A stretch of DNA of 64,000 nucleotides from contig NZ_JAALDK010000001.1 in the NCBI RefSeq assembly GCF_013366925.1, positions 1,929,089 through 1,993,088 of the forward strand, in the 5' to 3' direction. The first letter of the stretch is position 1. The number at the start of each line of letters is the position of its first letter. The notes below the pieces were generated by a model. It saw nothing but the letters and a program-made list of their open reading frames with translations. It ran no database searches and was not told the DNA's origin. Position numbers and translations under genes: made by a program. The stretch comes from Paraburkholderia youngii (GTDB lineage: Bacteria > Pseudomonadota > Gammaproteobacteria > Burkholderiales > Burkholderiaceae). Shown piece after piece: positions 268 through 40,675 of the stretch.

Positions 268-795
268 TCACGCGGCCATCGAGAAGAGATCGAGCTGCTG
301 CACTTCCTTGACCGCATGGCTAATCAGGTACTGATCCACTTCCGCCGGCGTCAGGTTCAGACGCTCGGCGAGGCGCGCGAAATACTGCCCGCGCACTGCC
401 ATCTCCTGATATCGCTGGGACTTCCCGGTAGGCAGTGTCAGGATCGTTTCGTTGAGCCAGAAACGCGCCGATTCGATCCCTGCATGGGCCTGCACGCGCG
501 CATACCGGTCGTAGTCAAACGAACAGGTTACGAACTCACAGGCTCTTTCGGCATCGACGTCGAGGTGGTCGCTTTGTTCGAAATACACAACGCGTTCGCC
601 AGCAGTCGTTTGCGCATAGGTGGACAAGCGACCCGGATGCCGGTAGCGATTCCACTGCTCGGCGCCAAAATCACGAAGCTGCCGTTCTATTGTGAAAATG
701 GACAGGCTTGAGGCCCAACAATCAATGGTTCGACAGATCAAGTCGCGTCCATTAGATTTTCGCCTAGATGGACAGTTTCCTTGCCGTCTGTCCAT
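268..795 (-). CDS. Hypothetical protein, putative partner of the DndC-like gene
   Basis: A 175-residue protein of unrecognised family. The start is chosen at ATG 795 because this codon lies inside the 9-bp repeat TGTCCATTT (789-797). The matching repeat at 40,667-40,675 overlaps the TAA stop of the DndC-like gene, so joining the flanks gives TAAATG. That is what a coupled gene pair looks like. The frame stays open to 885, but that extra part would come from the inserted island. The body is soluble and rich in aromatic and charged residues (FGAEQWNRYRHPGRLSTY, VTCSFDYDRYARVQ) and ends QQLDLFSMAA. There is no metal site or helix-turn-helix I can name. In the present arrangement it has lost its upstream neighbour and possibly its promoter. 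Confidence 0.6.
   Translation of the reverse strand: MDRRQGNCPSRRKSNGRDLICRTIDCWASSLSIFTIERQLRDFGAEQWNRYRHPGRLSTYAQTTAGERVVYFEQSDHLDVDAERACEFVTCSFDYDRYARVQAHAGIESARFWLNETILTLPTGKSQRYQEMAVRGQYFARLAERLNLTPAEVDQYLISHAVKEVQQLDLFSMAA
768..795. repeat. Inverted repeat at left island boundary (candidate recombinase core)
   Basis: ATGGACAG at 768-775 and CTGTCCAT at 788-795 are perfect 8-bp inverted arms around a 12-bp spacer. This is the layout expected for a tyrosine-recombinase core site. The right arm overlaps the TGTCCATTT copy shared with the other end of the island. The exact crossover point cannot be fixed from this one sequence. Confidence 0.45.
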
Positions 796-797
796 TT
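789..797 (+). repeat. Left boundary repeat TGTCCATTT (candidate attL core)
   Basis: TGTCCATTT here matches 40,667-40,675 in the same orientation, with a further copy at 40,641-40,649. The left copy holds the start codon of the 268-795 gene and the right copy abuts the stop of the DndC-like gene, which suggests one ancestral site split by insertion. An inverted copy (AAATGGACA) lies at 696-704. Just inside the island, CATTCCGC (798-805) and GCGGAATG (815-822) form another inverted repeat. Confidence 0.55.
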
Positions 798-929
798 CAT
801 TCCGCATGTCACGAGCGGAATGACAGTCGTCGACGACATCCGCCGGCAATACAGGTGTCATTGTGCCGCTCCCGCCTGCCGTCAATCGATCTTCTGAGCG
901 GTCGCTTTAGCCATCTGCGGACGCTCACG

Positions 930-2018
930 TCAATGGATCGAGCGGCTCAGGCGATACCATGCGCAACCGTCGGACCGAAGTTCCATCTCAGCTTCGCCGC
1001 GGTGCAACAGGTAATTCAGGTGTGCGATGCTCTCGCCGGTGGCCATGCCGAGCAAGCCCGGCTCCGCCGAGCTGATCGGACGTGAGAAAAGCTGCGGGAA
1101 TACATCCACTGCGCGCTTCGGCTGAACCAGAGCCTGCCTTAGCCGGTCGAGCGTCGCATGGTGGCTTCGTCTCAAATAGTCAAGGCGCTCGTGAAGTCCC
1201 CTGAACGGCTCGTTGTGTGCGGGCAGCACGACCACGTCGTCGGGGATCATTTTCTGCAGTTTGTCGAGGGATGCTAACCAGTCCTCCATCGGGTTGGCGT
1301 CCGGTTCGGTCGGGAAGACCGAGACATTGGATGAGATCCGCGGCAATACCTGGTCGCCGGAGATCAATAGTTTCGATTCGGCGCAGTAGAAGCATGCATG
1401 TTCCGGCGAGTGCCCATTGCCGGTTACAACACGCCAGGAATGCTCACCAATGTTCAGGGTCTCGCCGTCGCCAAGCCGACGGAAGCTATCCGGAAACGCG
1501 TGCACGAACTTGCCAAAGCCGCCGAAGCGCATCTTGTAGAGCTCGATCGCGTCGTCGTCCCAGCCCGCCTGCCGGTAGAAGCGCACGCCGTCGTCCGGTG
1601 CGGCTCGTCCGCTATCGGCGGCCAAGACCCGGCACATCAGATATTCCATGCGGGTCATCCAAAGCCGGCAGTCGAACTTCCGCGTGAGCCACCCTGCCAT
1701 GCCGATATGGTCCGGGTGCATGTGCGTGGCGAAGACGCGCGTCAGTCTTACTTGCGCCAAAGCACCGCCGTCGGCAAACAGTTTGTGCCAAGCCGCTGCC
1801 GTGTCGCTGGTTTGCAGGCCGGTATCGACGACTGCCCATCCGTTGCCGTCACGCAATGCCCATAGATTGATGTGGTTGAGCGCGAGCGGCATCGGCATGC
1901 GCAACCAGAGCACGCCCGGCGCAATTTCGCTGACCGTCCCGGCTGCGGGCGCTTCGCCACAAGGGTAGTGAAGAACGGGCTTATCGTCTCGAGGAGGAAT
2001 GAGAGTCTCGTCACTCAT
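930..2018 (-). CDS. MBL-fold metallo-hydrolase
   Basis: A 362-residue metallo-beta-lactamase-fold protein. The signature HMHPDH lies at residues 99-104, with further metal ligands likely in GHSPEH (about 203-207) and SGDQ (about 220), and a late His in LPAHNEPF. These are the conserved positions of dinuclear-metal hydrolases of the glyoxalase II/RNase Z type. The protein has no signal peptide, so it should act in the cytoplasm on a soluble ester or thioester. ATG at 2018 has GAGGAGGAATGAG-like purine sequence nearby. It is the last gene on the left of the island, downstream of sucCD on the same strand. A thioesterase or lactonase role in the catabolic pathway is inference from context; the fold call is firm. 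Confidence 0.8.
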   Translation of the reverse strand: MSDETLIPPRDDKPVLHYPCGEAPAAGTVSEIAPGVLWLRMPMPLALNHINLWALRDGNGWAVVDTGLQTSDTAAAWHKLFADGGALAQVRLTRVFATHMHPDHIGMAGWLTRKFDCRLWMTRMEYLMCRVLAADSGRAAPDDGVRFYRQAGWDDDAIELYKMRFGGFGKFVHAFPDSFRRLGDGETLNIGEHSWRVVTGNGHSPEHACFYCAESKLLISGDQVLPRISSNVSVFPTEPDANPMEDWLASLDKLQKMIPDDVVVLPAHNEPFRGLHERLDYLRRSHHATLDRLRQALVQPKRAVDVFPQLFSRPISSAEPGLLGMATGESIAHLNYLLHRGEAEMELRSDGCAWYRLSRSIH

Positions 2019-2216
2019 GGAATCGGACCGATTCGTTTAGCGCGAGCAATGTAGGCAGCCAAGTTCAGCGAGACGCCCGACAAGCCAAAGCACCACAGCA
2101 TTGGTGTCTTTAGGATCCACGGATCGGACGGTCGATCTTGTGCTCGGCGACTTTGGTTGCCTCGGCTGCACCACGCGCGGGTTCGTATTCTACATCCCTA
2201 TTGTTGCCGCTCCTGA

Positions 2217-3098
2217 TCAAATCAGCGACTTCAGCAGCCGCCCCATTTCGGACGGGTTCTTGGTGGTCTTGATGCCGCACTCTTCCATGATGTCCAGCTT
2301 GGCCTGCGCGGTATCGGCACCGCCCGAGATCAGCGCGCCGGCGTGGCCCATGCGCTTGCCCGGAGGCGCGGTCACACCAGCGATGAAGCAGACCACCGGC
2401 TTCTTCATGTTGCCCTTGATCCAGTAAGCCGCGTTGGCTTCGTCCGGCCCGCCGATCTCACCGATCATGACCACGGCGTCCGTTTCCGGATCGTCGTTGA
2501 ACATCTTCATGATGTCGATGTGCTTCAGACCGTTGATCGGGTCGCCGCCGATACCGACTGCCGACGATTGGCCCAGGCCCAGCGCGGTCAGCTGGCCCAC
2601 GGCTTCGTACGTCAGCGTGCCCGAGCGCGACACCACGCCGATGCGGGCCTTGCGGTGGATGTGGCCCGGCATGATGCCGATCTTGATTTCGTCCGGCGTG
2701 ATCAGGCCAGGGCAGTTCGGGCCCAGCAGCAGCGTCTTGCTGCCGGCCTTACGCATCTTGTCCTTGACCATCATCATGTCGCGCACGGGGATGCCTTCGG
2801 TGATGCAGATTGCCAGATCCAGGTCGGCTTCGACCGCTTCCCAGATTGCCGCAGCAGCGCCAGCCGGCGGAACGTAAATCACCGACACGGTCGCGCCCGT
2901 TTCAGCCTTGGCTTCAGCGACGCTTGCGTAGATGGGAATGCCTTCGAAATCTTCGCCGGCGCGCTTCGGGTTCACGCCCGCGACGTACGCTTCGCGGCCG
3001 TTTGCGTATTCACGGCAAGCACGCGTGTGGAACTGACCGGTCTTGCCGGTGATGCCCTGCGTGATGACCTTGGTGTCTTTGTTGATCAGAATCGACAT
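2217..3098 (-). CDS. sucD: Succinyl-CoA synthetase alpha subunit
   Basis: A 293-residue protein close to the usual SucD length. It has an N-terminal CoA-binding Rossmann domain (ITGKTGQFHTR) and the phosphohistidine region GHAGALISGG near residue 245. With SucC it interconverts succinate, CoA and ATP (or GTP) with succinyl-CoA and ADP plus phosphate. The start at 3098 (MSILINKDTK) is the standard family start, although the frame is open further upstream. It lies about 105 bp downstream of sucC on the same strand. A TCA-cycle gene pair inside a catabolic island is odd. It may handle succinate released by the ring-cleavage hydrolase, which is inference. Confidence 0.95.
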   Translation of the reverse strand: MSILINKDTKVITQGITGKTGQFHTRACREYANGREAYVAGVNPKRAGEDFEGIPIYASVAEAKAETGATVSVIYVPPAGAAAAIWEAVEADLDLAICITEGIPVRDMMMVKDKMRKAGSKTLLLGPNCPGLITPDEIKIGIMPGHIHRKARIGVVSRSGTLTYEAVGQLTALGLGQSSAVGIGGDPINGLKHIDIMKMFNDDPETDAVVMIGEIGGPDEANAAYWIKGNMKKPVVCFIAGVTAPPGKRMGHAGALISGGADTAQAKLDIMEECGIKTTKNPSEMGRLLKSLI

Positions 3099-3203: not shown

Positions 3204-4370
3204 TTATTTGCCTGCGGCAGCAGCGACGACCTTCTGAGCCGCTTCTTCCATGCTGTCCGCCGAGATGATCGGCAGGCCGGAATCAGCGAGCATCTTCTTG
3301 CCCAGGTCTTCGTTCGTGCCCTTCATGCGGACCACGAGCGGCACCTTCAGCGACACGGCCTTCGACGCCGCGATCACGCCTTCCGCGATCACGTCGCAGC
3401 GCATGATGCCACCGAAGATGTTGACCAGAATCGCGGTCAGGTTCGGGTTCTTCAGCATGATCTTGAACGCTTCGGTGACCTTCTCAGTCGTCGCGCCACC
3501 GCCGACGTCGAGGAAGTTCGCCGGTTCGCCGCCGAACAGCTTGATGGTGTCCATCGTCGCCATGGCGAGGCCAGCACCGTTCACGAGGCAGCCGATGTTG
3601 CCGTCGAGCGAGATGTACGCGAGGTCGAACTTCGACGCTTCGATTTCAGCCGGATCTTCTTCGTCCAGATCGCGGTAAGCGACGATTTCCGGGTGACGGA
3701 ACAGCGCGTTCGAGTCGAAGTTGAACTTCGCGTCGAGCGCGATGACCTTGCCGTCGCCGGTCAGGATCAGCGGGTTGATTTCGGCGAGCGATGCGTCGGT
3801 TTCCCAGAATGCCTTGTACAGGCCTTGCAGGATCGCGCGAGCTTGCGGGATCGAAGCGTCGGGCACGCCGATCTTCTTCGCGAGGTCGTCCGCTTCCGAG
3901 TCCTTCAGGCCGGTCGACGGATCCACAGCAACCTTGTGGATCAGCTCAGGCGTCTTTTCCGCGACTTCTTCGACGTCCATGCCGCCTTCGCTCGACGCCA
4001 TCACGACGATCTTCTGCGAAACGCGATCGATCACGAGACCGACATACAGTTCCTTCTTGATGTCAGCGCCTTCTTCGATCAGCAGGCGGTTCACCTTCTG
4101 GCCTTCCGGACCGGTCTGGTGCGTGACGAGCTGCATGCCGAGGATCTGGTTCGAGTATTCGCGAACCTGTTCCAGCGACTTGGCGACCTTGACGCCGCCG
4201 CCCTTGCCACGGCCACCTGCGTGGATCTGAGCCTTGACGACCCACACCGGGCCGCCCAGCTCTTCCGCGGCCTTGACCGCATCATCCACCGAGAAGACCG
4301 GCTTGCCGCGCGGTACCGCGACGCCGAATTTCCGCAGGATTTCCTTACCCTGGTACTCGTGAATCTTCAT
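3204..4370 (-). CDS. sucC: Succinyl-CoA synthetase beta subunit
   Basis: A 388-residue protein of the expected length with an N-terminal ATP-grasp domain (starts [17 protein letters not shown]; glycine-rich [14 protein letters not shown] near residue 50) and a C-terminal CoA-ligase domain ([17 protein letters not shown]). It supplies nucleotide binding and part of the succinate/CoA site. The ATG at 4370 is unambiguous. It is upstream of sucD in the same direction, and the pair probably forms its own transcript because about 200 bp separate it from the oxidoreductase gene at 4570-5586. The sequence looks intact. Whether this is a second sucCD copy beside a housekeeping one cannot be judged from this window. 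Confidence 0.95.
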
Positions 4371-4569: not shown

Positions 4570-5586
4570 CTATCGGGACGCCACGCGGATCATTACCTTG
4601 CCTTCATTAGCACCGCTGAAAAACAGCCTTAGAGATTCAGCCGCGTGCTCGAGCCCGTCCACCAAGTGCGCTCGATGCTTCAGCTTGCCTTCGGTGAACA
4701 AATCGAGGAGTACTTCGTCGAACTCGGCGTAACGATGTTCGAATTGCGAAACGACGAATCCTTCCATCCGCGCTTGTTTGACGAGCATGAGCGGAAGATT
4801 CTTGATTCCGTATGCTTCGCTCTCGGTAGCCAGGTCATACTGCGAGATTGCGCCACAGACCACAATGCGGCAACCAACAGCCATATTTTCCAAGACAGCG
4901 TCAAGCGTCGCCCCCCCGACGTTGTCGAAGTAAAGATCGATGCCGTCGGGACACTCGCGACGAAGCGCTGCATCGAGTGGCTCAGCCTTGTAGTCAATCG
5001 CACCATCGAGTCCCAACTCGTCGAGCAACCTGCGGCACTTAGCCTCACCGCCGGCAATGCCGATCACGCGGGCGCCAAATGCCTTGGCTATCTGCGCCGC
5101 CAGGGATCCCGTCGCGCCCGCTGCACCCGACACCACCACAGTGTCCGACGGACTGAGCGCGCCCACTTCGAGAAGACCCACCGCGGCCGCACGCCCGATG
5201 TGCGAAAAGATTGAAAGGTGCGTTTCCAGCGGAACGCCTGGTGGCAGCTCGATTTTCTCAAGCGCGTCGGGACGGGCAACCGAGAATTCTTCCCATCCCC
5301 ATAGTCCCTGCACGAGATCTCCTCGGGAGAAGCACACCGACCCCGACTGAACGACCTCACCCACGGCCATGCCAACCATCACGCTGCCTACTCCGAGTGC
5401 CGAATGGGAAGATGCAGGATCGAGCCTGAGCCAATTGCGACTACTCGGGTCCAAGCTCAGCAATAGCGTGCGCACGAGAACCTCTCCGCCCGCCTGACTC
5501 GGCCTCTCTCGCTCCTCAAGCTTCAGACAGCTAGGGTCATAGGCGCCTCGCGCCGGCTTGTGGACAATCCACGACTTTTGCTTCAT
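4570..5586 (-). CDS. NADP-dependent MDR-family oxidoreductase (CurA/LTB4-dehydrogenase type)
   Basis: A 338-residue zinc-free medium-chain dehydrogenase/reductase. The nucleotide-binding loop GAAGATGSLAAQIAK lies near residue 145, and the sequence SWIVHKPARG at the start and NVGGATLDAVLENM are typical of the YncB/CurA/leukotriene-B4-dehydrogenase group, which reduces alpha,beta-unsaturated ketones or acyl compounds with NADPH. The start at 5586 (MKQKSW) is preferred over an upstream ATG because GGAGAACG precedes it. The strand matches the catabolic operon. It could reduce a double bond in the side chain of the aromatic substrate or in a ring-cleavage intermediate, but this is inference. Its neighbours are sucC downstream and a small hypothetical gene upstream. 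Confidence 0.8.
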   Translation of the reverse strand: MKQKSWIVHKPARGAYDPSCLKLEERERPSQAGGEVLVRTLLLSLDPSSRNWLRLDPASSHSALGVGSVMVGMAVGEVVQSGSVCFSRGDLVQGLWGWEEFSVARPDALEKIELPPGVPLETHLSIFSHIGRAAAVGLLEVGALSPSDTVVVSGAAGATGSLAAQIAKAFGARVIGIAGGEAKCRRLLDELGLDGAIDYKAEPLDAALRRECPDGIDLYFDNVGGATLDAVLENMAVGCRIVVCGAISQYDLATESEAYGIKNLPLMLVKQARMEGFVVSQFEHRYAEFDEVLLDLFTEGKLKHRAHLVDGLEHAAESLRLFFSGANEGKVMIRVASR

Positions 5587-5672
5587 ACGTTCTCCATGCA
5601 CCGCTCGGTTCCGCGATCGCTATTCCGAAATTCTCAACAAATAGGCGAACAAGGACGCTGCCTTATCGCGAT

Positions 5673-6014
5673 TTAATGGGTGTGTCCGACGGGAGACCGC
5701 AGACATTCATCGTCGGATCGGAGGCACCGCGTCACGTCCTCGTTCACCCTCGACCGTCTCACATCGCCCGATGCTTCGTGCAACAGGCCAAGGCCGCGAT
5801 TTTCGGCGGCCCGTTTAGCCGCGCGTATGGCATCGTGAAAATTACTTTCGGCTGCAACTCGAACTCGATCAACGCTCACGACCCATTGATCGAACGCATA
5901 GCGCCACCGAACTCTGCGCTCTTCGAGAAGCACGCAAAACCAGCGCCAAATCGAAGCGTCCTCCGCATTGGCCGCGGCAGCCGCGTCAAGGCGGGCCTGC
6001 TGCATCGTATCCAT
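5673..6014 (-). CDS. Small hypothetical protein
   Basis: A 113-residue predicted protein with an acidic-aromatic middle (EDASIWRWFCVLLEERR) and a C-terminal part ending CLRSPVGHTH. From memory it resembles short uncharacterised proteins common in Burkholderia accessory DNA, but I cannot name a family. No signal peptide or membrane helix. The ribosome-binding site in front of ATG 6014 is weak. It lies in the gap between etfA and the MDR oxidoreductase gene, and the opposite strand is also open here, so the coding call is moderate. Confidence 0.4.
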   Translation of the reverse strand: MDTMQQARLDAAAAANAEDASIWRWFCVLLEERRVRWRYAFDQWVVSVDRVRVAAESNFHDAIRAAKRAAENRGLGLLHEASGDVRRSRVNEDVTRCLRSDDECLRSPVGHTH

Positions 6015-6060
6015 CGTTCTGTTCCGCCTTAGATAGTTCCGATGGCGATTTCGACGAACC

Positions 6061-6996
6061 TCAGTTGATCCGCTCAGTCAGTTCGGGCACGGCAACAAAC
6101 AGGTCGCCGACGAGCCCGTAGTCGGCCACGCTGAAGATGGGCGCCTCAGCATCCTTGTTGATTGCCACGATCACCTTCGAATCCTTCATCCCGGCCAAGT
6201 GCTGAATCGCACCCGAGATGCCCACCGCCACATACAGTTGCGGTGCGACGATTTTGCCAGTCTGGCCCACTTGGTAGTCGTTCGGCACATAGCCCGCATC
6301 CACGGCCGCGCGCGAGGCGCCCAGCGCCGCACCGAGCTTGTCGGCCAGCGGCTCGAGCACCTTGGTGTAGTTCTCGCCGCTCCCCAAGCCGCGGCCACCC
6401 GACACGATGATGTTCGCGCTCGTGAGCTCCGGGCGATCGAGCTTCGTCACGTCGCGGTTCACGAGCTGCGAAATGCCACGGTCACCTGCGGCTTCGATCT
6501 TGTCCACCGATGCGCTGCCGCCTTCGGCCGCTACCGCATCGAAGCCCGTCGCACGCACCGTGATGACCTTGATCGCGTCGCCCGATTGCACCGTGGCGAT
6601 GGCATTGCCCGCGTAGATCGGACGCTCGAACGTATCGGCGGACACCACAGCCGTGATTTCGCTGATCTGCGCCACATCCAGCCTGGCCGCCACGCGTGGG
6701 GCAATGTTCTTACCATAGGCCGTTGCCGCCGCCACGATGTGCGAGTAATCCTTCGCAATGTTCAGCACCGTGGCTTCGACGTTTTCCGCCAAGCCTTGGG
6801 CCAGATGCGGCGCATCGGCCAGCAGCACCTTCGCCACCCCCGCGATCTTGGCCGCTGCCTCGGCTGCGCCATGCGCATTGTGGCCGGCGACCAGCACGTG
6901 GACGTCGCCGCCAATCTTCTGTGCAGCAGCAACTGTGTTCAGCGTCGCGCCCTTGATCGACGCGTTGTCATGTTCCGCAATTACCAGAATCGTCAT
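6061..6996 (-). CDS. etfA: Electron transfer flavoprotein alpha subunit
   Basis: A 311-residue protein of normal EtfA length. The C-terminal FAD-binding domain is clear: GGRGLGSGENY, followed by GASRAAVDAGYVPNDYQVGQTGK and VGISGAIQHLAGM. With EtfB it takes electrons from acyl-CoA dehydrogenases and passes them to ETF:quinone oxidoreductase. The start at 6996 (MTILVIAEHDN) is the family start. It follows etfB with a short gap of about 23 bp, so the two are co-transcribed. In this island the likely electron donor is the acyl-CoA dehydrogenase encoded at 26,781-28,085. It is intact with no unusual residues noticed. Confidence 0.95.
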   Translation of the reverse strand: MTILVIAEHDNASIKGATLNTVAAAQKIGGDVHVLVAGHNAHGAAEAAAKIAGVAKVLLADAPHLAQGLAENVEATVLNIAKDYSHIVAAATAYGKNIAPRVAARLDVAQISEITAVVSADTFERPIYAGNAIATVQSGDAIKVITVRATGFDAVAAEGGSASVDKIEAAGDRGISQLVNRDVTKLDRPELTSANIIVSGGRGLGSGENYTKVLEPLADKLGAALGASRAAVDAGYVPNDYQVGQTGKIVAPQLYVAVGISGAIQHLAGMKDSKVIVAINKDAEAPIFSVADYGLVGDLFVAVPELTERIN

Positions 6997-7019
6997 TTCG
7001 TCTCGCTCCGCGCGTAATC

Positions 7020-7769
7020 TCACAGCACCTTGGCTTCGGTCTTCAGCTTCTCGACCAGCGTCAGCACGTCCGGCACGATCACGCCGGCGCTGCGCTTGGG
7101 CGGCTCGGCCACCTTCAGCGTCTTCAAACGCGGTGCCACATTCACGCCGAGGTCCTCGGGTTTAATCGTTTCCAACGGCTTCTTCTTCGCCTTCATGATG
7201 TTGGGCAGCGTCACGTAGCGGGGCTCGTTGAGGCGCAGATCCGTCGTCACCACGGCAGGCAGCGTCAACGTCAGCGTTTCCGCGCCGCCGTCCACTTCAC
7301 GCGCAACCGTGGCCTTGCCGCCTTCGACCGTCACCTTCGAGGCAAACGTCGCTTGCGGCAGATTGGCCAGCGCGGCGAGCATCTGGCCCGTTTGATTCGA
7401 ATCGTCGTCGATCGCCTGTTTGCCCAGGATCACGAGCTGCGGTTGCTCCTTATCGACGAGCGCTTTGAGCAGCTTGGCCACAGCCAGCGGCTGCAGATCT
7501 TCGTTCGACTCGACCAGGATCGCGCGATCGGCACCGATCGCCAGTGCCGTGCGCAGCGTCTCCTGGCATTGCGCCACACCGGCCGACACCGCCACCACTT
7601 CCGTAGCCACACCCGCTTCCCTCAGACGCACCGCCTCTTCCACGGCAATTTCGTCGAACGGGTTCATCGACATCTTCACATTCGCAATATCGACGCCCGC
7701 GCCGTCCGACTTGACCCGGACCTTGACGTTGTAGTCGACCACGCGTTTCACTGAAACCAACAATTTCAT
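7020..7769 (-). CDS. etfB: Electron transfer flavoprotein beta subunit
   Basis: A 249-residue protein starting [20 protein letters not shown], the standard EtfB start, with the AMP-binding region ([21 protein letters not shown]) near residue 120 and the recognition-loop region [12 protein letters not shown]. It forms a heterodimer with EtfA. The ATG at 7769 is preferred over an upstream GTG at 7778. It precedes etfA in the same direction. Upstream lies a weak terminator-like element for the chemoreceptor gene, so etfBA may have its own promoter. Presence of a dedicated ETF fits a pathway with its own acyl-CoA dehydrogenase. Confidence 0.95.
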
Positions 7770-7787
7770 CTCAATCACCGTTCATTG

Positions 7788-7816
7788 AAAAATGCAAAAC
7801 CCTCCGAGGGCTCGGA
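7788..7816 (-). terminator. Putative terminator downstream of the chemoreceptor gene
   Basis: Read on the minus strand, TCCGA-GCCC-TCGGA (7803-7816) is followed by GGGTTTTGCATTTTT. The stem is short (5 bp), but the T-rich tail is in the right place, just after the stop of the gene at 7825. Confidence 0.4.
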
Positions 7817-7824
7817 ATTTCTTA

Positions 7825-9438
7825 CTAAACGACGGAAACTTCTAGCTGCTCCTCAACCTGGCGGCGTTCGGATGCCACCGTTCCTTCAGTGCTCTGCCGC
7901 AACAGGAAGACCGATACCGCGTCGCCTAGATTTTTTGCTTGCTCCTGGAGTGACTGCGCGGCGGCGGCCGCCCGTTCGACAAGCGTCGCATTCTGTTGCG
8001 TCGCCTCGTCCATCTGCGATACCGCCTGCTCGACCTGCTCGATCCCGCGGCTTTGCTCGTCGGACGCGCGTGCTATTTCGGCAACGATATCTGAGACGCT
8101 GCGGATGGCCTGCTTGACGTGCGTCATGGTTGCGCCCACGTCCGTAGCTTGCCGAGCACCCTCCTGGATCATCGCCACAGACGCGCTAATCAGTTCCTTG
8201 ATTTCCTTAGCCGCAGCCGCAGAGCGTTGGGCAAGGCTGCGCACCTCACTGGCAACGACTGCAAATCCGCGTCCCTGCTCGCCGGCGCGCGCCGCTTCGA
8301 CTGCGGCGTTCAAGGCAAGAATGTTTGTTTGAAACGCAATGCCTTCGATCACGCCCGTGATATCTGAAATCTTGGACGAGCTGCTGGCGATTTTCTCAAT
8401 AGTTCCAACCATGCCTTGTACTGCTTCGTTACCCGTGTCGGCTAGACTGGCTGCGCCAGTCGCGAGATCATTCGCCTGCATTGCATTGTCTGCATTCTGC
8501 TTCACGGTCTCCGTCAGCTGCGTCATGCTCGCTGCCGTTTCCTCCAGCGACGAAGCTTGTTCTTCAGTTCGTGAGGAAAGTTCCATATTGCCGCTTGCGA
8601 TTTCGTGAGACGAACGCCCGACCGAGGCAGCGGACGCCAGTATGCGGCGAACCGTCGACGATAGCTGCTCATCCATCCTTTTCAGAGCCGCGAGCAACTG
8701 ACCGAATTCACCTCCGCAGTCGACGATTAAATTGTTCTCCAGCTTGCCGACAGAGATGTTACCGGCGACACCTATTGATTTTTCGAGGGGGCGCGAGATC
8801 GAACGCAGGAGATAGATACTTATAGCGATTGCTGTGAGTAGGCCCATACCCGACATCGTCAACGCGAGAATCAGCGTTGTATGATAGGTCGCATGCCCCT
8901 GGTCGGCCCATTTTCCCGCTTCAGAACGTGTAACATCGACGCCATCATCAATGGCAGCCGTCAGTGCTTTCCAGACCGCTTCATCGGCGACGATATACTT
9001 TTCCGCAGTATCTCGGTCGCCGGCCGCATCAGCCGAAGCAATCTTCGCGTCACCGTCCATGATCTGAGGAAGTAACGCCACAATGCGGTCGGCCACAGCG
9101 CGTCCTTCGCCACTCGCAGCCCCACTGGCGTAGTAGTCATTCCACGCCTTATGCAGGAGGTCTTCATCTTCGCGAATTGCATCCGTGAACGATGAGACAG
9201 TGGACGCATCGGTCGTTGCCTGTATGCGGCGCAACTGTAAGCGTATGTCCAACAGCGCCTTGCGCATGTCGCCGAGGTTCGCAACAGGAAGCGCGCCTTT
9301 GAGGTAAACCTCCGCGACACGTGTATCTAGCCTGGATAGTCCGATAGCGCTAAAGAAACTCATCGCAGCCAGCATAACAACGCAGACAGTCGCACCCACA
9401 ATGACCGTGAAGCGCATCGTTCCTATCATGCCTTTCAT
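7825..9438 (-). CDS. Methyl-accepting chemotaxis protein
   Basis: A 537-residue transmembrane chemoreceptor. The first membrane helix is at about residues 9-32, a periplasmic four-helix-type sensor domain follows, the second helix is at about 190-212, then a HAMP domain (LRSISRPLEKSIGVAGNISVGKLENNL) and the cytoplasmic signalling hairpin with the conserved tip EGIAFQTNILALNAAVEAARAGEQGRGFAVVA. It lacks an obvious CheR/CheB-tethering NWETF-type tail. It is on the same strand as the degradation operon and may direct movement toward the aromatic substrate, but the ligand is unknown. A stem-loop separates it from the reductase gene upstream. Confidence 0.9.
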   Translation of the reverse strand: MKGMIGTMRFTVIVGATVCVVMLAAMSFFSAIGLSRLDTRVAEVYLKGALPVANLGDMRKALLDIRLQLRRIQATTDASTVSSFTDAIREDEDLLHKAWNDYYASGAASGEGRAVADRIVALLPQIMDGDAKIASADAAGDRDTAEKYIVADEAVWKALTAAIDDGVDVTRSEAGKWADQGHATYHTTLILALTMSGMGLLTAIAISIYLLRSISRPLEKSIGVAGNISVGKLENNLIVDCGGEFGQLLAALKRMDEQLSSTVRRILASAASVGRSSHEIASGNMELSSRTEEQASSLEETAASMTQLTETVKQNADNAMQANDLATGAASLADTGNEAVQGMVGTIEKIASSSSKISDITGVIEGIAFQTNILALNAAVEAARAGEQGRGFAVVASEVRSLAQRSAAAAKEIKELISASVAMIQEGARQATDVGATMTHVKQAIRSVSDIVAEIARASDEQSRGIEQVEQAVSQMDEATQQNATLVERAAAAAQSLQEQAKNLGDAVSVFLLRQSTEGTVASERRQVEEQLEVSVV

Positions 9439-10540: not shown

Positions 10541-10544
10541 GGCA

Positions 10545-11582: not shown

Positions 11583-11595
11583 GCCGTCTCTCCCT

Positions 11596-12546: not shown

Positions 12547-12568
12547 TGCTCGTCCTTCGCTAGTGCGT

Positions 12569-28085: not shown

Positions 28086-28098
28086 ACTAGGAACTTGT

Positions 28099-31685: not shown

Positions 31686-31703
31686 CGGTCGAAGGTGCTG
31701 CCT

Positions 31704-31731
31704 AAGCTCCGAAGGTATTCGGACGGAGCTT
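31704..31731 (+). terminator. Stem-loop after the OmpW gene
   Basis: AAGCTCCG (31,704-31,711) pairs with CGGAGCTT (31,724-31,731) across a 12-nt loop, 19 bp past the OmpW stop. There is no T run, so the terminator call is weak. Confidence 0.35.
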
Positions 31732-31905
31732 GACTGCATCATCTCTAGCTCCGGGTTCGATAGAACTCAATCGACGGCGAACGATTCCGAAGGGCAGAAG
31801 CAACAACGGTTCGTTAATAAAAGCGTTATAAGTTTCGTCCCATTACGCCATCAACTACATGGCGCTCCTTTTGAGCTAATTTCATTCATATGAGGGGAAG
31901 ATCAC

Positions 31906-32679
31906 ATGCGAATGGCAGGCAAAACGGTGCTGGTCACAGGTGGAAATAGTGGAATTGGATTCGCTGCGGCCAAACGGCTATCGGAAGAAGGCGCTACTGT
32001 GGTTATCACCGGACGCAACGAAGCTACACTTTCCGAAAGCAAGGCGGCACTTGGCGAGTCGGCTTTTGCCTTTCGCTTGGATGCTACCGACTTCGTCGGC
32101 CTGGAATCCGGGCTCGCATCCATCGTGAGAGACGTAGGCAATTTCGACGCTGTGTTTCTGAATGCTGGCGACGCAAGCTTGACGCCAGTGGGCGGCACGA
32201 CTGTAGAACAGTTCGATCACTTGATCGCGACGAACCTGAAAAGTCCCTTCTTCTACGTTCAAGCGCTCCTACCCCACCTACGAAACAATGCTTCTATAGT
32301 ACTGAATAGTTCGATCGGCAATGCGATCGGAATGCCGGGGATGGCAGCCTATGCTGCCAGCAAGGCTGGACTGGTCGGGATGGCCCGATGCATCGCCTCA
32401 GAGCTGTCTGGAAGAGCGATCCGAGTAAATGTCGTCTCTCCCGGTAATATTCGAACTCCGTTCTGGCGAACTGTAGCAGACGCCGCGCTCATTCCAGCCG
32501 TACATGAGTTCGCGACGCGATCCGTCCCACTGGGCCGCCTGGGTGAGGCAGAAGAGGTCGCAGAGGTCGTGCTCTTTCTCTGCTCTAGTGAGTCATCGTA
32601 TGTGCAAGCTACCGAAATCTATGTTGACGGTGGGGTCACTGGCGCGATGATGGGGGCTCCCGCCTATCGCCAGGATTAG
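31906..32679 (+). CDS. SDR-family oxidoreductase
   Basis: A 257-residue classical SDR with TGGNSGIGFAAAKRL at the start, NAGD replacing NNAG near residue 88, the catalytic Ser in VLNSSIGNA and YAASK near 150. It is preceded by GAGGGGAAG. The C-terminus (DGGVTGAMMGAPAYRQD) is typical of the 3-oxoacyl-reductase-like group. It is the last plus-strand gene of the catabolic part and converges with the TetR gene at 32,956. Substrate unknown; it could be regulated by that TetR protein, though no operator is visible in its own upstream region. Confidence 0.82.
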   Translation: MRMAGKTVLVTGGNSGIGFAAAKRLSEEGATVVITGRNEATLSESKAALGESAFAFRLDATDFVGLESGLASIVRDVGNFDAVFLNAGDASLTPVGGTTVEQFDHLIATNLKSPFFYVQALLPHLRNNASIVLNSSIGNAIGMPGMAAYAASKAGLVGMARCIASELSGRAIRVNVVSPGNIRTPFWRTVADAALIPAVHEFATRSVPLGRLGEAEEVAEVVLFLCSSESSYVQATEIYVDGGVTGAMMGAPAYRQD

Positions 32680-32955
32680 CGTATCTGCATGCGGCAAGGT
32701 GCGACATCGCTTTGGTCGACATCACTCCGATGTGCTTAATCGATAACCCGCAGTTCTGTCGAATCCCTGAAGACGGTTCGCAGCAGGCATTCCCCCGTCC
32801 GCTCGTCGCGAAACACATCGGTAACCTGTCGGGATGCCAGCACTCTTAGCGGAGTGAAGCAGGCGATATCAGCTGGGTCGACAGGTGTAGATCGTCTCTC
32901 GAATCAGGCGCAGTTCTATGGAAAGTCTGGCAATCAGCGTCAGGAGCGTTTCACC

Positions 32956-33609
32956 CTACTGCGGGGCGGCGCTGAGCGCTCTCCATACGACCTTTGTCGC
33001 TGCACGAAGTGCTTCAACGTCGGCCGAGCCCCCACGTACAGGGCGAACGAGGACAATTAGTCCCGCCATATGCGAATAAAGCAGACGACCGCGGAGCGCG
33101 CATTCTTGAGGCGTAAGCGACGGGTTGATCTTCCCTACCAGGCTCGCAAATGTTTCCTGAAATTGGCGGTTAAATCTGGCCACCAAGCTCCGGGCAAACT
33201 CTTCACGCTCTCCCATGCTCCATCCTTCGAGACAAAACGGCGCAATGTGGGTACCGGGTTTGGTCAACTCATCAAAGGCGACGTCCACGATAGCGTCGAG
33301 CCGAACCTCTGGTGACCGTTCATCGTCCTTCACCAAACTTTGATACAGCGTCAGGTATCGCGTCGCGACCTCTTCCATCGCCGCACGCAACAAGTCTTCC
33401 CTGCTCGGGAAGTAGTGCTGCAAAGTAGCCAGGTGAATACCTACCTCACTGGCAACGCGCCGGAGAGCAAAACCGACGTTACCGTACTTTGCGAGCACAT
33501 CGATCGCCGCCTCGAGGATCTCCGGAGTTCGCGTTGTCCTGTTACCGCGACGCTTCGGCTCGTCGGGTTCCTCTTTCCTGCCAGCCAGGTTGATCGCGAC
33601 CTGTTTCAC
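32956..33609 (-). CDS. TetR-family transcriptional regulator
   Basis: A 217-residue regulator with a lysine/arginine-rich N-terminus and a TetR helix-turn-helix (FALRRVASEVGIHLATLQHYFPSREDLL, about residues 47-74). The C-terminal part resembles the BetI-like ligand domain (CLEGWSMGEREEFARSLVARFNRQFQETFASLV). Its upstream region carries several CGACCAAT elements and a long palindrome, candidates for autoregulatory sites. The target is not certain; it might control the SDR at 31,906 or the small genes around 34 kb. Confidence 0.85.
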   Translation of the reverse strand: MKQVAINLAGRKEEPDEPKRRGNRTTRTPEILEAAIDVLAKYGNVGFALRRVASEVGIHLATLQHYFPSREDLLRAAMEEVATRYLTLYQSLVKDDERSPEVRLDAIVDVAFDELTKPGTHIAPFCLEGWSMGEREEFARSLVARFNRQFQETFASLVGKINPSLTPQECALRGRLLYSHMAGLIVLVRPVRGGSADVEALRAATKVVWRALSAAPQ

Positions 33610-35041: not shown

Positions 35042-37119
35042 TCAGCTATGTGCAGGCTTACTTCGCTCCACGGGGACCGAGCTTATGCTCAGTGCTCGCC
35101 CCTTCTCGCTTGCAATCCGGTGCCTACGCTCCAGCAATCTCGCAAGGATATCTCTTTCGATCCTGGTCTCTGGTAGGTCCGGAGCCGCGCTGTCCAGCTC
35201 CATCACCATTTGCAACTGGATCCGAATGATCCGCTCAAACTTGGGCAACTGGATGACCAGGTTCTTGCAGTCATTCAGCAGGCATTCGAGGTTCATCGGA
35301 TCCTCGGGACGCTTGTCACACTGGCCTACTTTAGTACAGCCACCGGCAAATGTTTCGCGATAACCCCGCTTACCCTGACGGAACTCGTTCAGCGTCGTTT
35401 CCCGATCAAGCGACACCTGTTTGCGGCGCACCGCTCGGTCATACCATATAGCGTATCCGCCGCTTAGCTGCCCCGGATCGCCCATCTCCACGTTGACCAA
35501 ATGTCCGAGATATTCGGCGTCAGGCTCGGTCGCTTGCCACTCCACGCCGAAGTGCTTCCCGCCGGCTTGCTGACCGGAGATGAAGTCACCCGCAAACTGT
35601 GAGCCGCGGGCGTAATACAGCGACATCTCGTGGGTTATGTGCTGCAACTGGCGCTTCAGCGATGGCAGAGATACGAGGCCGCTGGCGTGGGCGTATAGTG
35701 CGAGCGATCGGCGGAACTGGTGTGTGGTAAGCCGCCACCGCTGGCCGACACTAAAGTCGCCCTCACCTCTCCAGTCCCGTTCCGGATCGACCAACTCCAA
35801 CTCCTCGATGTCTTTCTCTGTGATCGCGATCTCCAGTACGGAACGTAGCCGATTAAATGACCGCTCGGAAAACTGTAGGTTCGGAGTCCGGTTCCTCGCC
35901 TCGAACCTAGGAGAAAATATGCTACCTATGCTGACGAACAGACAATGTGAACTCTTTCCCGACGTACTGTCTTTTGGGGTGTCGCCTGCCAGACCATAGA
36001 CCGCTCGCGAGATGCGCTGCGCCAGGACGATTGCACGTCGGCCGCTACTGCTCGTCACCCATTGCGCACGTTTGGGCTTGCCGCCGGTCAGCTTCGTGAC
36101 GCGTCCTTGCACCATGTAATGCGCCACACCACCGGCCGTTACTTCCGCCAGGCAAAAATGCGGCAGTGCCTCGACTTCGTTGTGACGCATCCAGTAAAAG
36201 CCTGAATTTGTAGCGCACATGCCCCCATGATTTCTGTCAGCAACGCTGATAGACTTTGGAAATGCGCGCCATACCCCTTCCTCGCCCAGAAGTCTTCGAG
36301 ATCGTATTCACGCAGCACTTCCACGAAATCAGGTCTCGCTTCTTGCCTACGCTGTCCCAGGTCTTTCTGTCGGGCTCTGCTCCTTCCTAAGAGTTTGTCT
36401 TTCGCGCACGCACCCAACATCTCCAAGATTCTGTCGATAACTCGCTCACAGTCGCCCAGCTCGGAGGCAAGTGCAGCTAATACATGCGTATAAATTCGAG
36501 TCGGCAGCGGAGGTGTCTGGAAATGACCGACGGCCGCGCCGATGGCTGCTATTCTGCTGATGGTCCTCGCCTGTACAACCTTGAATCCCACCCGCTCCTG
36601 TCCCAATTGGCGCAGTAACTGCAGCAATGGCGAGAGGCATCTGGCGTGGACGGGGTACGTTGTCGCATGCTGTATCATCGCTTCCGAATCCGCCATCAGC
36701 TGCTCGAGCGTTGCGCATTGTGATTCCGCTACTGCAGCTAGCCGACAGATCATCGTGCAATACTTGATCATCGTCGCGTTGCTTAACGGGTCAGTCCGCA
36801 GGTAGATCAGGACGAACATCAGCCAGCGTATTTCATCTACCAGCGCCGAGCGCTGTGGCGTCATCTGCCTTAGCGCCGCCGGAATATCTGGGGCAGAGTA
36901 CGGAAGGCGCCAGTAATCGAAATACAAGACCGCTCCGGATCCATCAGTCCCATACGGCGAACGGTCCCAGGCGAGCTGTCCGTAAAACGATAGCGGGTCG
37001 CCGTCCAAATTTCGCGATACGACGAAGTTGTCCGGAGGCATCAATCCATTCGACGAATCATACTCGTCGGGAGCACTTTTTCCGGGAATGCTCTCCAGCC
37101 TTGCCTGGAATCTCGTCAT
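35042..37119 (-). pseudogene. Third tyrosine recombinase, frameshifted
   Basis: Two overlapping frames read as one protein of about 690 residues. The first (37,119-36,139) starts MTRFQARLESIPG at an ATGA overlap with the previous gene and covers the N-terminal part. The second (from about 36,220 to 35,042) carries the catalytic part: the first Arg in GFYWMRHNEVEALP and TTHQFRRSLALYAHASG. The frames differ by one base and meet at a run of five G (minus strand, 36,226-36,222); a sixth G would join them as EIMGGMCATNSGFYW. This could be a true mutation, a sequencing slip or a slippage site. If it is real, the recombinase set is disabled. Confidence 0.75.
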
Positions 37120-39044
37120 TGCAACCTTTCTATCTCAAGATAGGCCCGCATCTTCGCCGACCAATAGGGGGTCAAACTACCGTCTTGATCGACCTTACCC
37201 TCAATGTCCGCCACTATGTCCGGTCGAAGTTCCCTTACCCGGTCCAAAATGAACTCAATCCGTTTCAAGACCGGCTCATATTTGCTCCTGTACTCTTCAT
37301 GGGTACTCACGCGGCTCGCCCTGCGTCCGATGCACAGACGCGCGCTCAATAATTTGTGCACATCTGCCTCATCCGCGTGGGCATGGAAGTGCTCGCAGAA
37401 GTAGCAGCCCTCGGGGCACTTGCAATCCGGCGTGACTGGAGTGTTTTCAATGATCGGGTTCGGCTGCTGGGGCGCACCACAGCTTCCGCTAACCCGGTCC
37501 TCGCTGCCTGGCAGATGGTCGCCTTTCGCCAAGATCTTCACCTTCGTCTCGAGGACTTTCCAGAAGGCAGCAACCTCAAGTTTCCCAATAGTAGGTGATC
37601 CGTTGCTGTAGTATCGAGCGGCCGTCTCTTCCGTGTGTTGCATCGCCACCGCGGCAGTGGCCGGATCGCTGGTGCGGATCAAAAAATCCTGCTTACCCGC
37701 GCGGAGTTCGCGAGGATTTACTGTAGGCAAGCTAGGGTCGAGCATGCGAAGTGTCTTGTAAATCGACTGGACCGCAGCTTGTCCGCCTATGGGTTCGGGC
37801 TTTTCCGCTTGCTCGTTCGGACCAAGGCTGAAGAAGAGGTAGTCACAGGTTCGTCCTCGCAGAAGAAATGTGCGCAGATACAGGTATTGCCGCAGCAGCC
37901 GCGTATGATTCACCCCAATCTCGAAGGTGACCTGCGTCCCGCCGGCGCGGTACTTGATATTGCGAAACTGCTGTCGCGTCACATTCTTTCTAAGAATCTG
38001 CTCGTCCAGTTCAGGACTCCATGGCAGGCTGGCGACTACTGACAACGGCTGTCCCGACGATGCAAGGAGCAACATCAGGTACCCTTTCATCGCGAGCATT
38101 CCGCGCTCGATGCGTGAATGATGCAGTCGGTCGGCAGTAGCCGCCGCCAGTAACTGATGCATTCGCAAGTTGTCTAATCGCAATTTAGGGGGGTGTCGCT
38201 TCGTGAGATGGCGAACCTCTTCCGGCTTGCGGATCCTCCCATTTGCGAAATCGATGTGACGCCCTTGCCCAATGGGTTGCCGACGCTGCGTCACGGCCCA
38301 CGGTACCGTTGGAAATACCCATAATCGATTTCCGCGTTCACCTAAGTAATCGCAGACCGGAAGGGGGAATGGATATGGCTTGTGATTCACGAGCAAGTCG
38401 GTGAATCCTTCGACGAGGCATTCGCACCACGCCAGCACTTTGCCAACCACCGCCTCATCCGGCGGTAGAGTTGGCTCGACAAGCCGCTTATCCTTCGTAA
38501 TAAGGTTGATGCCAATTCCGAGATCCTCGAAGCCGGTCACCCGTTGTAGCACTGCGATAGCGTGGCTTTGATAGGCAGCCGCTGGATTCTGACCTAGCGT
38601 GCCCGTCATGATCCGTTCGCGTAGGTACGCGACATAGGACTTTAGCGCTTGCTTTAATGCAGGTTCAGCGTAAATAGCGTCGTGCCGACCGTTCAGGTCG
38701 CACCAATCCATGAAGCGGAGGTAACAGCCGTATGCGGGTCGCAGACTCGACAGGCGAGTTCCTCCCAACCTGGCCTCGAGGACCACGGATTGAATGACCG
38801 TCCGAACGTGCTCGACCCGCCGGCGGTGCATGGAAGCCGGGTCTACACGCCGGCCCTCATTCGCTCCTCGGGTGGCGTTACTCCTGCGCAGAAAGCAGAG
38901 TGCACCGAAATCCAGCGTTCCATTCCTGTGACCGAAAGCCAATATTACCCGCTCTGGATGCAGCAATACCGCGCCCTCAGGAAGCGGCAGCACATGAAGA
39001 TCAGTTTGCCGGCTCTGCAGGACGCTATCGCGTTCTCTCTTCAT
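37116..39044 (-). CDS. Second tyrosine recombinase/integrase-like protein
   Basis: A 642-residue protein. The start at 39,044 (MKRERDSV) overlaps the first recombinase stop as ATGA. The C-terminal half has the tyrosine-recombinase pattern NPRELRAGKQDF near residue 460 and HTEETAARYYSNG near 490. A late Cys/His cluster (CKCPEGCYFCEHFHAH) suggests a metal-binding region specific to this branch. It is translationally coupled on both sides. The same gene order is known from multi-recombinase elements, where the proteins act together on the element ends. Confidence 0.8.
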   Translation of the reverse strand: MKRERDSVLQSRQTDLHVLPLPEGAVLLHPERVILAFGHRNGTLDFGALCFLRRSNATRGANEGRRVDPASMHRRRVEHVRTVIQSVVLEARLGGTRLSSLRPAYGCYLRFMDWCDLNGRHDAIYAEPALKQALKSYVAYLRERIMTGTLGQNPAAAYQSHAIAVLQRVTGFEDLGIGINLITKDKRLVEPTLPPDEAVVGKVLAWCECLVEGFTDLLVNHKPYPFPLPVCDYLGERGNRLWVFPTVPWAVTQRRQPIGQGRHIDFANGRIRKPEEVRHLTKRHPPKLRLDNLRMHQLLAAATADRLHHSRIERGMLAMKGYLMLLLASSGQPLSVVASLPWSPELDEQILRKNVTRQQFRNIKYRAGGTQVTFEIGVNHTRLLRQYLYLRTFLLRGRTCDYLFFSLGPNEQAEKPEPIGGQAAVQSIYKTLRMLDPSLPTVNPRELRAGKQDFLIRTSDPATAAVAMQHTEETAARYYSNGSPTIGKLEVAAFWKVLETKVKILAKGDHLPGSEDRVSGSCGAPQQPNPIIENTPVTPDCKCPEGCYFCEHFHAHADEADVHKLLSARLCIGRRASRVSTHEEYRSKYEPVLKRIEFILDRVRELRPDIVADIEGKVDQDGSLTPYWSAKMRAYLEIERLQ

Positions 39045-40594
39045 CTGGTTGCCTCTGGTCCGTCCAGTTTTTCCCGGCCTTCCAGGGCGTGCCGCTTTAC
39101 CCTCTCGCCCAGTTCTGTCTCCCATGCATCTTGCGCCGCACGCGCCAATTCGACGGCCTCACGGTAGCGCACGTAGCCCTCAGTAACCGAAATACGCTTG
39201 TGGTGAAGCCGCGCCTGGACCCATTTCAGGCCATCCATCAGCGTCCCCTTTGGTCCGTCTGTTTGGTTCGGATCCCTCGGCTTGTCAACCAACCGTTCAA
39301 GCTCGTTCATCCCGAACGTCGCCCGCAACCAGTGGAACGTGTAATGAAAGTCGCCATCATGCTTACCGCGGACGGCCGGAATAATTTTATTGCGGATAAT
39401 GTGCCCTAGCGCGTCGCCGGTCTTGTGTCTGCGATGAGTGTTGGTTTCATTGAGTTCAGGAACGGCCTGCATCGATCGATACCATGGCTGCTTTCTCTTC
39501 TCGGTCAGGAACAGATACTGGTCGTCGATGTCGCCGCCGGCGGCCATCTTCCGCCGTTTCGTCGCGCGTTCACTGTGTGCGTAGCCGTGAAGGGCGTCAT
39601 ATAGCCATACCGGAATATGCAGCGGATAGTTCTGATTGAGCTTCGTGTCGATACCGGTGCCCGGGCCTACCGCGACAACCACGAATCCATGTCGGGCTTG
39701 CGTAGCGTAGCGGATGCACGCCGTTCTCCATGAACCACCGGGTGTAGTGCTTGCCCAAACATGCTTCCGCCGAAACGTCAAGACCGTTTCCAGCCGTGCG
39801 CCGGTGTACCAAGCCAGCCAATGCATTAGCTGGACTTCGTAGTTTCCGTGCGCGTGCAAGGCTTCCTCCAGCCAAATTTGTTGTTCCACGGTCAAAGGTC
39901 GCAGCTTGCCACCGTCCCTGATATGGGCATCGAACGGATTTGGAGTTGGCTTGCCCTTCACGTTTAAGTCCGTTGCTGTGACTGGAATTTCTAGGACGAT
40001 CCCCTGCGACGTTGGAACCGGAATTTTGACTTGCCTTTCTAGCCATGTAGGTTTCGCTGGCTTGAAATGCGTTTCGCTCATCAGATAGCGATAGAAGCGA
40101 ATGACAGTCTGCATGCGCCTCTGCCCGACGCTGTGGCTGATCACGTTTTGGATGACCAGGTCCGATAGGTATGTTTTGAATCGGTAAGTGGGACGCTCGT
40201 CCTTGAAGAAACCAGAGAAGTCCATCCAGTCAATGTTCTCTTCCTCGAGAAATCGTAGGTAGGCGACGAGATCGTTCACCGTGGATGCGATGTCGCGGGT
40301 CGATGAATGCGGGTCATACGCCTTCTCCTGCAACCTGTGTCGTATCCACAAGTTTGCTTCGTACCACGGAACGCCACCACTACGAATGACTATCGGGTAT
40401 AGGTCATAATCGGAACGCTTCCAGCGGGGTGAACCGTCTCCTCGGTTAACTTCGCCTTGGGTGTGCATCGGGCGGATGAAGTAATGGGCGCCGTTCGGCA
40501 GTTCGACTCGCGTCGCACCGGTGTCGGCTGCGTCGCACGTAACTGTTTCTACGTAGCGGGGGAGGACGATACGACGCGCATGGCTTTGGGACAT
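39041..40594 (-). CDS. First tyrosine recombinase (site-specific integrase)
   Basis: A 517-residue tyrosine recombinase with a complete catalytic set: Arg in YTGARLETVLTFRRKHV near residue 270, HWLRATFG near 420, and the nucleophile region LHHKRISVTEGYVRYR near 475. The N-terminal half holds a SAM-like core-binding domain (DLVAYLRFLEEENIDWMDFSGFF). It begins about 50 bp from the right island boundary at 40,641-40,675, and is the most likely enzyme to act on the boundary repeats. It is the first of three genes joined by ATGA overlaps. Confidence 0.88.
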   Translation of the reverse strand: MSQSHARRIVLPRYVETVTCDAADTGATRVELPNGAHYFIRPMHTQGEVNRGDGSPRWKRSDYDLYPIVIRSGGVPWYEANLWIRHRLQEKAYDPHSSTRDIASTVNDLVAYLRFLEEENIDWMDFSGFFKDERPTYRFKTYLSDLVIQNVISHSVGQRRMQTVIRFYRYLMSETHFKPAKPTWLERQVKIPVPTSQGIVLEIPVTATDLNVKGKPTPNPFDAHIRDGGKLRPLTVEQQIWLEEALHAHGNYEVQLMHWLAWYTGARLETVLTFRRKHVWASTTPGGSWRTACIRYATQARHGFVVVAVGPGTGIDTKLNQNYPLHIPVWLYDALHGYAHSERATKRRKMAAGGDIDDQYLFLTEKRKQPWYRSMQAVPELNETNTHRRHKTGDALGHIIRNKIIPAVRGKHDGDFHYTFHWLRATFGMNELERLVDKPRDPNQTDGPKGTLMDGLKWVQARLHHKRISVTEGYVRYREAVELARAAQDAWETELGERVKRHALEGREKLDGPEATR

Positions 40595-40640
40595 GGCTCA
40601 CCTTCGGCTTTTCTGTCGGTCTCAGTGTATGACCTGTCGA

Positions 40641-40649
40641 TGTCCATTT
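40641..40649 (+). repeat. Internal copy of TGTCCATTT near the right island end
   Basis: A second copy of the boundary sequence, 26 bp inside the copy at 40,667. Repeated short sites next to a crossover point are common arm-type binding sites of tyrosine recombinases. Confidence 0.45.
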
Positions 40650-40666
40650 TCTTAATGATCTGCCAA

Positions 40667-40675
40667 TGTCCATTT
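40667..40675 (+). repeat. Right boundary repeat TGTCCATTT (candidate attR core)
   Basis: Same orientation as the copy at 789-797. It overlaps the TAA stop (40,676-40,674, minus strand) of the DndC-like gene. On the minus strand the order is AAT-TAA-ATG-GAC, so this copy, like the left one, also reads ATGGAC. Confidence 0.55.

Follow-up and report, generated by a model that had tools for sequence, protein, structure and literature searches.

The 64,000-nucleotide stretch of the Paraburkholderia youngii genome analysed here (the window; G000:C1:1929089-1993088 of a four-contig, 9.49-Mb assembly; positions below are those of the window) contains a genomic island with three integrases (GInt), a known class of element. 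The ginA-ginB-ginC-ginD genes lie at one end, followed by ~34 kb of aromatic-catabolic cargo and an AT-rich opposite end (Table 1). Very probably this 40,049-bp GInt, likely through a tyrosine-recombinase crossover at a 6-7 bp core, split a single DndC-like gene and brought in predicted aromatic-degradation genes. The split gene, the ends of the island, the ginABCD order, a frameshift in ginC and a conserved pattern of sites near one terminus can all be read directly from the sequence. The island exemplifies the arrival of a predicted aromatic-degradation pathway in a chromosome, followed by probable fixation through loss of one recombinase gene.

The island splits a DndC-like gene

In tblastn searches of the genus genomes, the open reading frame (ORF) to the right of the island (40674-42101) has a 96% copy on contig C3 of its own genome; other genomes of the genus hold full-length relatives, and the match spans residues 1 to ~465 within frames of ~600 residues. 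The 175-residue ORF to the left matches the same loci from its residue 40 on, directly downstream of the right-ORF match. Residues 40-175 of the left ORF are the C-terminal part, and the right ORF is the N-terminal part, of one ~593-residue DndC-like protein; the ~39 first residues of the former and the ~10 last of the latter are island sequence. In the blastn alignment with the C3 locus, position 678 is the last homologous base on the left and 40721 the first on the right, the two matches overlapping by 7 bases in the C3 copy. Joining 1-678 to 40728-42101 yields a single 594-codon frame with 97.1% gapless identity to the C3 protein (593 residues), such that omitting 679-40727 leaves one ORF.

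Matches to the full protein are present in 28 of 144 genus genomes. Uninterrupted copies covering at least 560 of the 593 residues occur at 15 places in 13 of the 144, representing the empty state. The P. youngii genome itself has three copies: intact on C3 (96%), intact on C4 (59%) and split on C1. By its profile scores the protein is DndC-like rather than DndC: the window ORF scores 114.8 with TIGR03183 (cut-off 290.4) and the PAPS_reduct match of the C3 copy is under cut-off. Among the neighbours of the C3 copy, SMC_N and Metallophos_2 are sub-threshold and Gp3-like is above threshold. Since an intact 96% paralogue remains on C3, the host may tolerate loss of the split copy.

A sequence-only reading had proposed that a ~40-kb recombinase element with catabolic genes entered the stop/start junction of a two-gene operon. 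The element itself is borne out, with a gin operon and an aromatic cargo, recombinase genes near one end (ginA starts at 40594) and a size of 40,049 bp. The operon is not: the two flanks are parts of a single gene, and the TAAATG that was read as a coupled junction is an accident of element sequence. For the 175-residue protein, taken to be a separate gene, homologues start ~465 residues further upstream, which is one of the outcomes that the sequence-only reading had itself named as refuting it. The empty sites that were to be sought do exist, as one continuous gene and not as two adjacent ones. The endpoints also move, with crossover within 672-678 / 40721-40727.

These two positions form a 7-nt flanking repeat with 6 of 7 bases matching, bordered inside the island by imperfect core arms of ~10 bp. 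Comparison of the empty site AAAATCCCGAAGACCTTCGG with the left junction AAAATCACGAAGCTGCC and the right junction GCATACCCGAAGACCTTCGG reveals that the gin-proximal core is identical to the empty site, whereas one base, synonymous in the gene, differs in the distal core. This difference fits the footprint rule of SE elements (PMC10214605); because the change is synonymous, plain divergence would fit as well.

The gin operon and its broken third gene

Among 7,995 scored candidates there are 125 GinA homologues at E ≤ 0.001, and R267, H421, R424, H465 and Y474 are invariant in all 25 that were aligned. None of the recombinase ORFs of the window matches a Pfam or NCBIfam model; Phage_integrase and Phage_int_SAM_1 each match 16 of the 25 GinA homologues. 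The closest GinA shares 75% identity (P0002, Paraburkholderia caledonica), with another at 60%, the best in the species-genome scan reaching 44% and those in 161 plasmid records all falling below 60%. A pattern scan of 84,980 species genomes, taking the best 80 of 96 confirmed relatives, gave 79 GinA loci, 56 of which hold ginA, ginB, ginC and ginD in this order; the remainder are cut or incomplete.

The window copy of ginC loses its frame exactly between the TG and MR of the box-I (catalytic-arginine) motif. Of 454 GinC homologues found, 34 were aligned, all keeping GMR; the 120 listed are mostly single frames of ~655-685 residues, and the HxxR and H..Y boxes were seen in the 13 inspected for them. 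GinC of the window subfamily carries first-Arg, HxxR, H and Tyr boxes. In a Pseudomonas GInt none of the four gin genes is dispensable (Bardaji et al. 2017; PMC5385486). With its ginC disrupted at the catalytic-arginine box, we predict that the island cannot move without help in trans. We consider it unlikely that the break is instead an assembly error or a programmed frameshift in an active island. The lesion is a lone frame shift in an otherwise open coding sequence, as such an account would have it, and independent support for the break is weak because the protein cluster of the C-terminal GinC fragment, with seven member sequences, lists only one contig, that of this same genome. The 34 aligned homologues nevertheless hold the region in a single frame, so programmed shifting is not general.

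A fixed array of sites at the 3′ end

Just inside the 3′ end of the island lie four ATGGACA sites of alternating orientation (ATGGACA, TGTCCAT, ATGGACA, TGTCCAT), one of them mismatched; the gin end has two. The longer motif TGTCCATTT occurs four times in the window (789-797, 40641-40649 and 40667-40675 on the plus strand, 696-704 on the minus strand) against 0.27 expected, and none of 100 shuffles reaches four. With one mismatch allowed, TGTCCATT has 29 window matches, six of them inside the two island ends (273 bp in total). Elsewhere in the genome, the pattern GATGTCCATTT has one additional match on C2 and one on C3; a relaxed array pattern matches the genome exactly once, at 699-794 of the window, the left island end.

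The arrangement recurs in relatives. We searched 86 sequences (the 79 loci, the window and six copies from genomes G083 and G082, described below) with a loose four-site expression allowing gaps of 5-60, 5-60 and 5-75. Matches, one per sequence, came from 20 of the 79 GinA loci, from each of the six copies and from the window, compared with 0 of 86 for the reversed control and one array in total from ten Markov resamplings. All 20 positive loci have the whole gin operon, making up 20 of the 56 whole-operon loci. Gaps are 14-15, 17-19 and 41-43 throughout, and the intervening sequences differ. In a tolerant scan of 83 sequences, 24 score 25-28 out of 28, none scores 24 and the control peaks at 21. 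A strict pattern (last gap 43), run on 196 genomes, was found in 11, each of which belongs to the 24 genomes with a GinA match; its control gave 0. Of the 19 strict-pattern arrays, 18 share the strand of ginA and are located 5.6-8.5 kb downstream from where ginA starts. One orphan array (L178, G082:C4:959906-960005) has no ginA at the usual distance and is perhaps a remnant end. Distances to the core are also held: the last site is 18 nt away in two Caballeronia elements (L073 and L085) and 19 nt in the window and G083, and at the gin end the spacing between the core and a perfect site is 47 nt (window) or 49 nt (L073, L085).

We favour, with some reserve, the reading that the four-site array (gap lengths varying by only 1-2 bp, ~19 bp away from the crossover) and the gin-end site at ~47 bp together constitute a recognition signal of a broad GInt clade, missed earlier, on which a four-protein recombination machine would assemble in the manner of the lambda arm sites. 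GinA and GinB would likely exchange strands at the 6-nt core between the imperfect inverted arms (CTGCCGTTC ... GTTCGGCATA). A synaptic complex would form as Gin proteins bind the ATGGACA sites: at the 3′ end the four whose geometry is fixed, ~19 bp off the core, and at the gin end one or two that begin ~47 bp inside. If true, the array makes it possible to locate GInt ends in a sequence for which no empty site is at hand. Such a signal would make boundaries readable across the clade and offers a concrete hypothesis for the need for four element proteins. We found no description of the four-site array in the open-access literature, including the available portions of PMC5385486 and PMC10214605.

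Several observations pull against this picture of a GInt with a terminal recognition signal. The flanking repeat, at 7 nt with 6 matches, is below the 10-17 nt published for GInts, and the island is single-copy in its genome, so its target specificity rests on relatives. A gin-end site with at most one mismatch is missing in 12 of 15 elements, where the sequence is more degenerate. The strict array is missing in 13 of the 24 genomes with a GinA match, several having weak or partial GinA matches only; P. youngii itself is among the 13, with a last gap of 41. In the stretch examined, 36 of the 56 whole-operon loci have no array, which cargo may explain. Finally, across 19 distant genomes a three-site pattern gave six matches in five genomes against 14 for its reversed control, with zero matches in the five Pseudomonas genomes of this set.

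What favours the array there is a fourth site alone: among the six distant pattern matches, the set in which it was looked for, five have it 40-45 nt on, as expected. Three of these arrays are apparently on the contig and strand of ginA, downstream by ~11.5 kb in Keguizhuia, ~10 kb in Vogesella and ~92 kb in Methylobacter; those of Herbaspirillum and Acinetobacter are on contigs other than that of ginA. The array may therefore reach beyond Betaproteobacteria, given Methylobacter (ginA contig and strand) and Acinetobacter (gin genes on another contig). The Methylobacter pair (array L184 at 606783, ginA L046, same strand) possibly marks a GInt near 100 kb.

A doubtful alternative is that the ATGGACA array binds a regulator of the gin genes, or forms hairpins in a single-stranded intermediate as proposed for SE elements, for which movement as one strand has been put forward (PMC10214605). 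The array sites do pair as inverted repeats, and the gin-end site is just upstream of ginA; yet the array and the gin promoter are at opposite ends, with ~40 kb between array and ginA in the window, the distance to the core is fixed, and gap lengths held to 1-2 bp read as protein phasing on duplex DNA, not as loops. That TGTCCATTT is a target duplication, left as the island entered the junction of two coupled genes, can practically be dismissed: its copies are directly oriented near both ends and both ORFs run into it, but DndC-like homologues are one continuous protein with intact 593-aa copies, the motif recurs inside the ends of relatives, and, because the homology breaks off 111 bp short of the left copy and picks up again 46 bp past the right one, both copies lie inside the island. 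The direct repeat at 789-797 and 40667-40675 noted by the sequence-only reading is real and in excess of chance, and belongs to a sub-terminal site array rather than to an attachment core.

Related GInts

Two cargo-less GInts split another DndC-like gene, L073 in Caballeronia hypogeia and L085 in C. pedi, with residues 1-70 upstream of ginA and 68-593 behind ginD; within the stretch examined, these are the only two of the 79 loci with a DndC-like match. L073 has the same four-site pattern, with core ATCGAGA and arms ACGGATAAG and CTTATCCGT. Since L073 and L085 share an insertion point and are 88% and 93% identical over two long stretches, they probably reflect one event. GInts have thus inserted in the DndC-like family on two separate occasions (window and Caballeronia), at different points and in the same orientation. 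Partial DndC-like matches in six other genomes (G211, G071, G001, G221, G207 and G056) were considered as the same insertion and rejected, none of the six having a GinB match.

Genome G083 contains three identical cargo-less GInts (L155, L156 and L157; 5,782 bp arm to arm) and G082 another three (L158, L159 and L160; 6,041 bp arm to arm), all with the four-site pattern. The G083 copies sit at one point of homologous genes (DUF932 in the flank scanned), and the flanks of the G082 copies are alike. The identity of the copies suggests recent movement.

Relation to known elements

GInts are described as having a gin operon at one end and a 6-nt staggered cut, cargo of 2.5 to ~70 kb, a short AT-rich 3′ end and flanking imperfect direct repeats of 10-17 nt with a ~6-nt staggered core (PMC5385486). 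Their ends are poorly conserved apart from some well-conserved AT-rich stretches, and a common self-recognition feature at the 3′ end is not reported (PMC5385486). GInts with identifiable termini numbered 20 in the 2023 SE paper (PMC10214605). They carry resistance, virulence and biosynthetic clusters, and their ends are hard to find. The island agrees in its ginA-B-C-D genes at one end, intervening adaptive cargo cluster, AT-rich other end and imperfect repeats with a ~6-nt core. It differs in lying mid-gene, in a flanking repeat of 7 nt, in its broken ginC and in a conserved terminal site array where PMC5385486 gives no common feature. Whereas the GInt and SE papers describe GinC without catalytic residues, GinC of the window subfamily has the boxes, including the first Arg reported missing in PMC5385486.

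SE elements (PMC10214605) share with the island four conserved genes, two clear tyrosine recombinases, imperfect inverted repeats around a 6-bp core, and the footprint noted above, with its single-base difference at the distal core. SE elements, however, are found mainly in a subset of Gammaproteobacteria, and their proteins cluster apart from those of GInts. The SE label was rejected on gene order, ginA-ginB-ginC-ginD in the island and intA, CDS2 (tfp), intB, CDS4 (srap) in SE. Tn554 likewise has tandem tyrosine recombinases and the small TnpC, to which GinD has low identity (PMC5385486); this label was set aside in that Tn554 has two recombinases only, without a counterpart of the third protein. 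RIT elements resemble the island in three adjacent tyrosine recombinases. Their recombinases are 315-410 aa and the archetype has 34-bp terminal inverted repeats, in contrast to island proteins of 517, 669 and ~670-700 aa, imperfect arms of ~10 bp, a fourth gene and cargo; the label was not adopted. The recombinase ORFs show no NCBIfam match that would point to gamma-mobile-trio islands (GmtX/Y/Z proteins), in a library that may lack Gmt models. Integrative conjugative or mobilizable elements were also discounted, no relaxase, conjugation or other transfer families appearing among the cargo ORFs covered by the Pfam scan (part of the ORFs).

Cargo and neighbouring genes

The HcaB-like dihydrodiol dehydrogenase scores 370 with NF004849 (cut-off 330). 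With HcaE the score is 404 (cut-off 830), which leaves a phenylpropanoid-type acid no more than a predicted substrate. The conjugative plasmid pBcn842-1 of Burkholderia cenocepacia has largely the same genes, differently ordered; 20,534 of the 33,920 bases of the cargo can be aligned to it, with a mean identity of 75%. The plasmid stretch (L128, 42.8 kb) has no four-site array, its best score being 20/28.

Table 1 Features of the split gene, the island ends, the gin operon and the cargo (window positions)
Feature	Position	Strand	Basis
C-terminal part, split DndC-like host gene	268-678	-	96% to residues 457-593 of intact C3 copy
Crossover repeat CACGAAG, gin-distal (3′) end, includes 6-nt core	672-678	+	Compared with empty site AAAATCCCGAAGACC in L021
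AT-rich 3′ end of GInt	679-820	.	G+C 48.6% against 58.8% island-wide
Element core arm CTGCCGTTC, imperfect inverted repeat of 40711-40720	679-687	+	Sequence
Four-site terminal array: 698-704 (-), 746-752 (+, one mismatch), 768-774 (-), 789-795 (+)	698-795	.	6-mer gaps 14/17/41, gin orientation
MBL-fold hydrolase	930-2018	-	PF00753
Succinate-CoA ligase sucD	2217-3098	-	NF004230/TIGR01019
Succinate-CoA ligase sucC	3204-4370	-	Alignment to annotated sucC of pBcn842-1
Zinc-binding dehydrogenase-type reductase, electron transfer flavoprotein alpha/beta, chemotaxis receptor	4570-9438	-	Pfam/NCBIfam
Predicted aromatic ring-cleavage pathway: reductase, DmpG aldolase, acetaldehyde dehydrogenase, acyl-CoA synthetase, FAA hydrolase	9518-21422	-	Pfam/NCBIfam
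Same block, also: HcaB-like dehydrogenase, Rieske dioxygenase alpha/beta, LigA/LigB-type dioxygenase, alpha/beta hydrolase	9518-21422	-	
TetR and AraC regulators, thiolase, enoyl-CoA hydratase, acyl-CoA dehydrogenase, acyl-CoA ligase, short-chain dehydrogenases/reductases, OmpW, TetR	21580-33609	.	
ginD, small protein, 136 aa	34599-35009	-	33-55% to ORFs behind ginC in related operons
ginC, broken, frames 36139-37119 and 35042-36220	35042-37119	-	Homologues mostly ~670-aa single ORFs
ginB, 669 aa, tyrosine recombinase-like	37116-39125	-	Homology and position, related operons
ginA, tyrosine recombinase, 517 aa	39041-40594	-	R267, H421, R424, H465, Y474 invariant in 25 aligned
gin-end sites TGTCCAT, 40641-40647 and 40667-40673	40641-40673	+	Outer site 47 nt from core
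Element core arm GTTCGGCATA, gin end	40711-40720	+	Sequence
Crossover repeat CCCGAAG, gin end, same as empty site	40721-40727	+	Empty-site comparison
N-terminal part, split DndC-like host gene	40728-42101	-	96% to residues 1-465 of intact C3 copy

Beyond the island, homology between C1 and C3 ends at ~42105, just upstream of the DndC-like start codon. A transposase-like gene (42265-43764; Mu-transpos_C_2 above cut-off), which we take to be IS21-like, lies directly upstream of this start codon, beyond the point where the C1-C3 homology ends.

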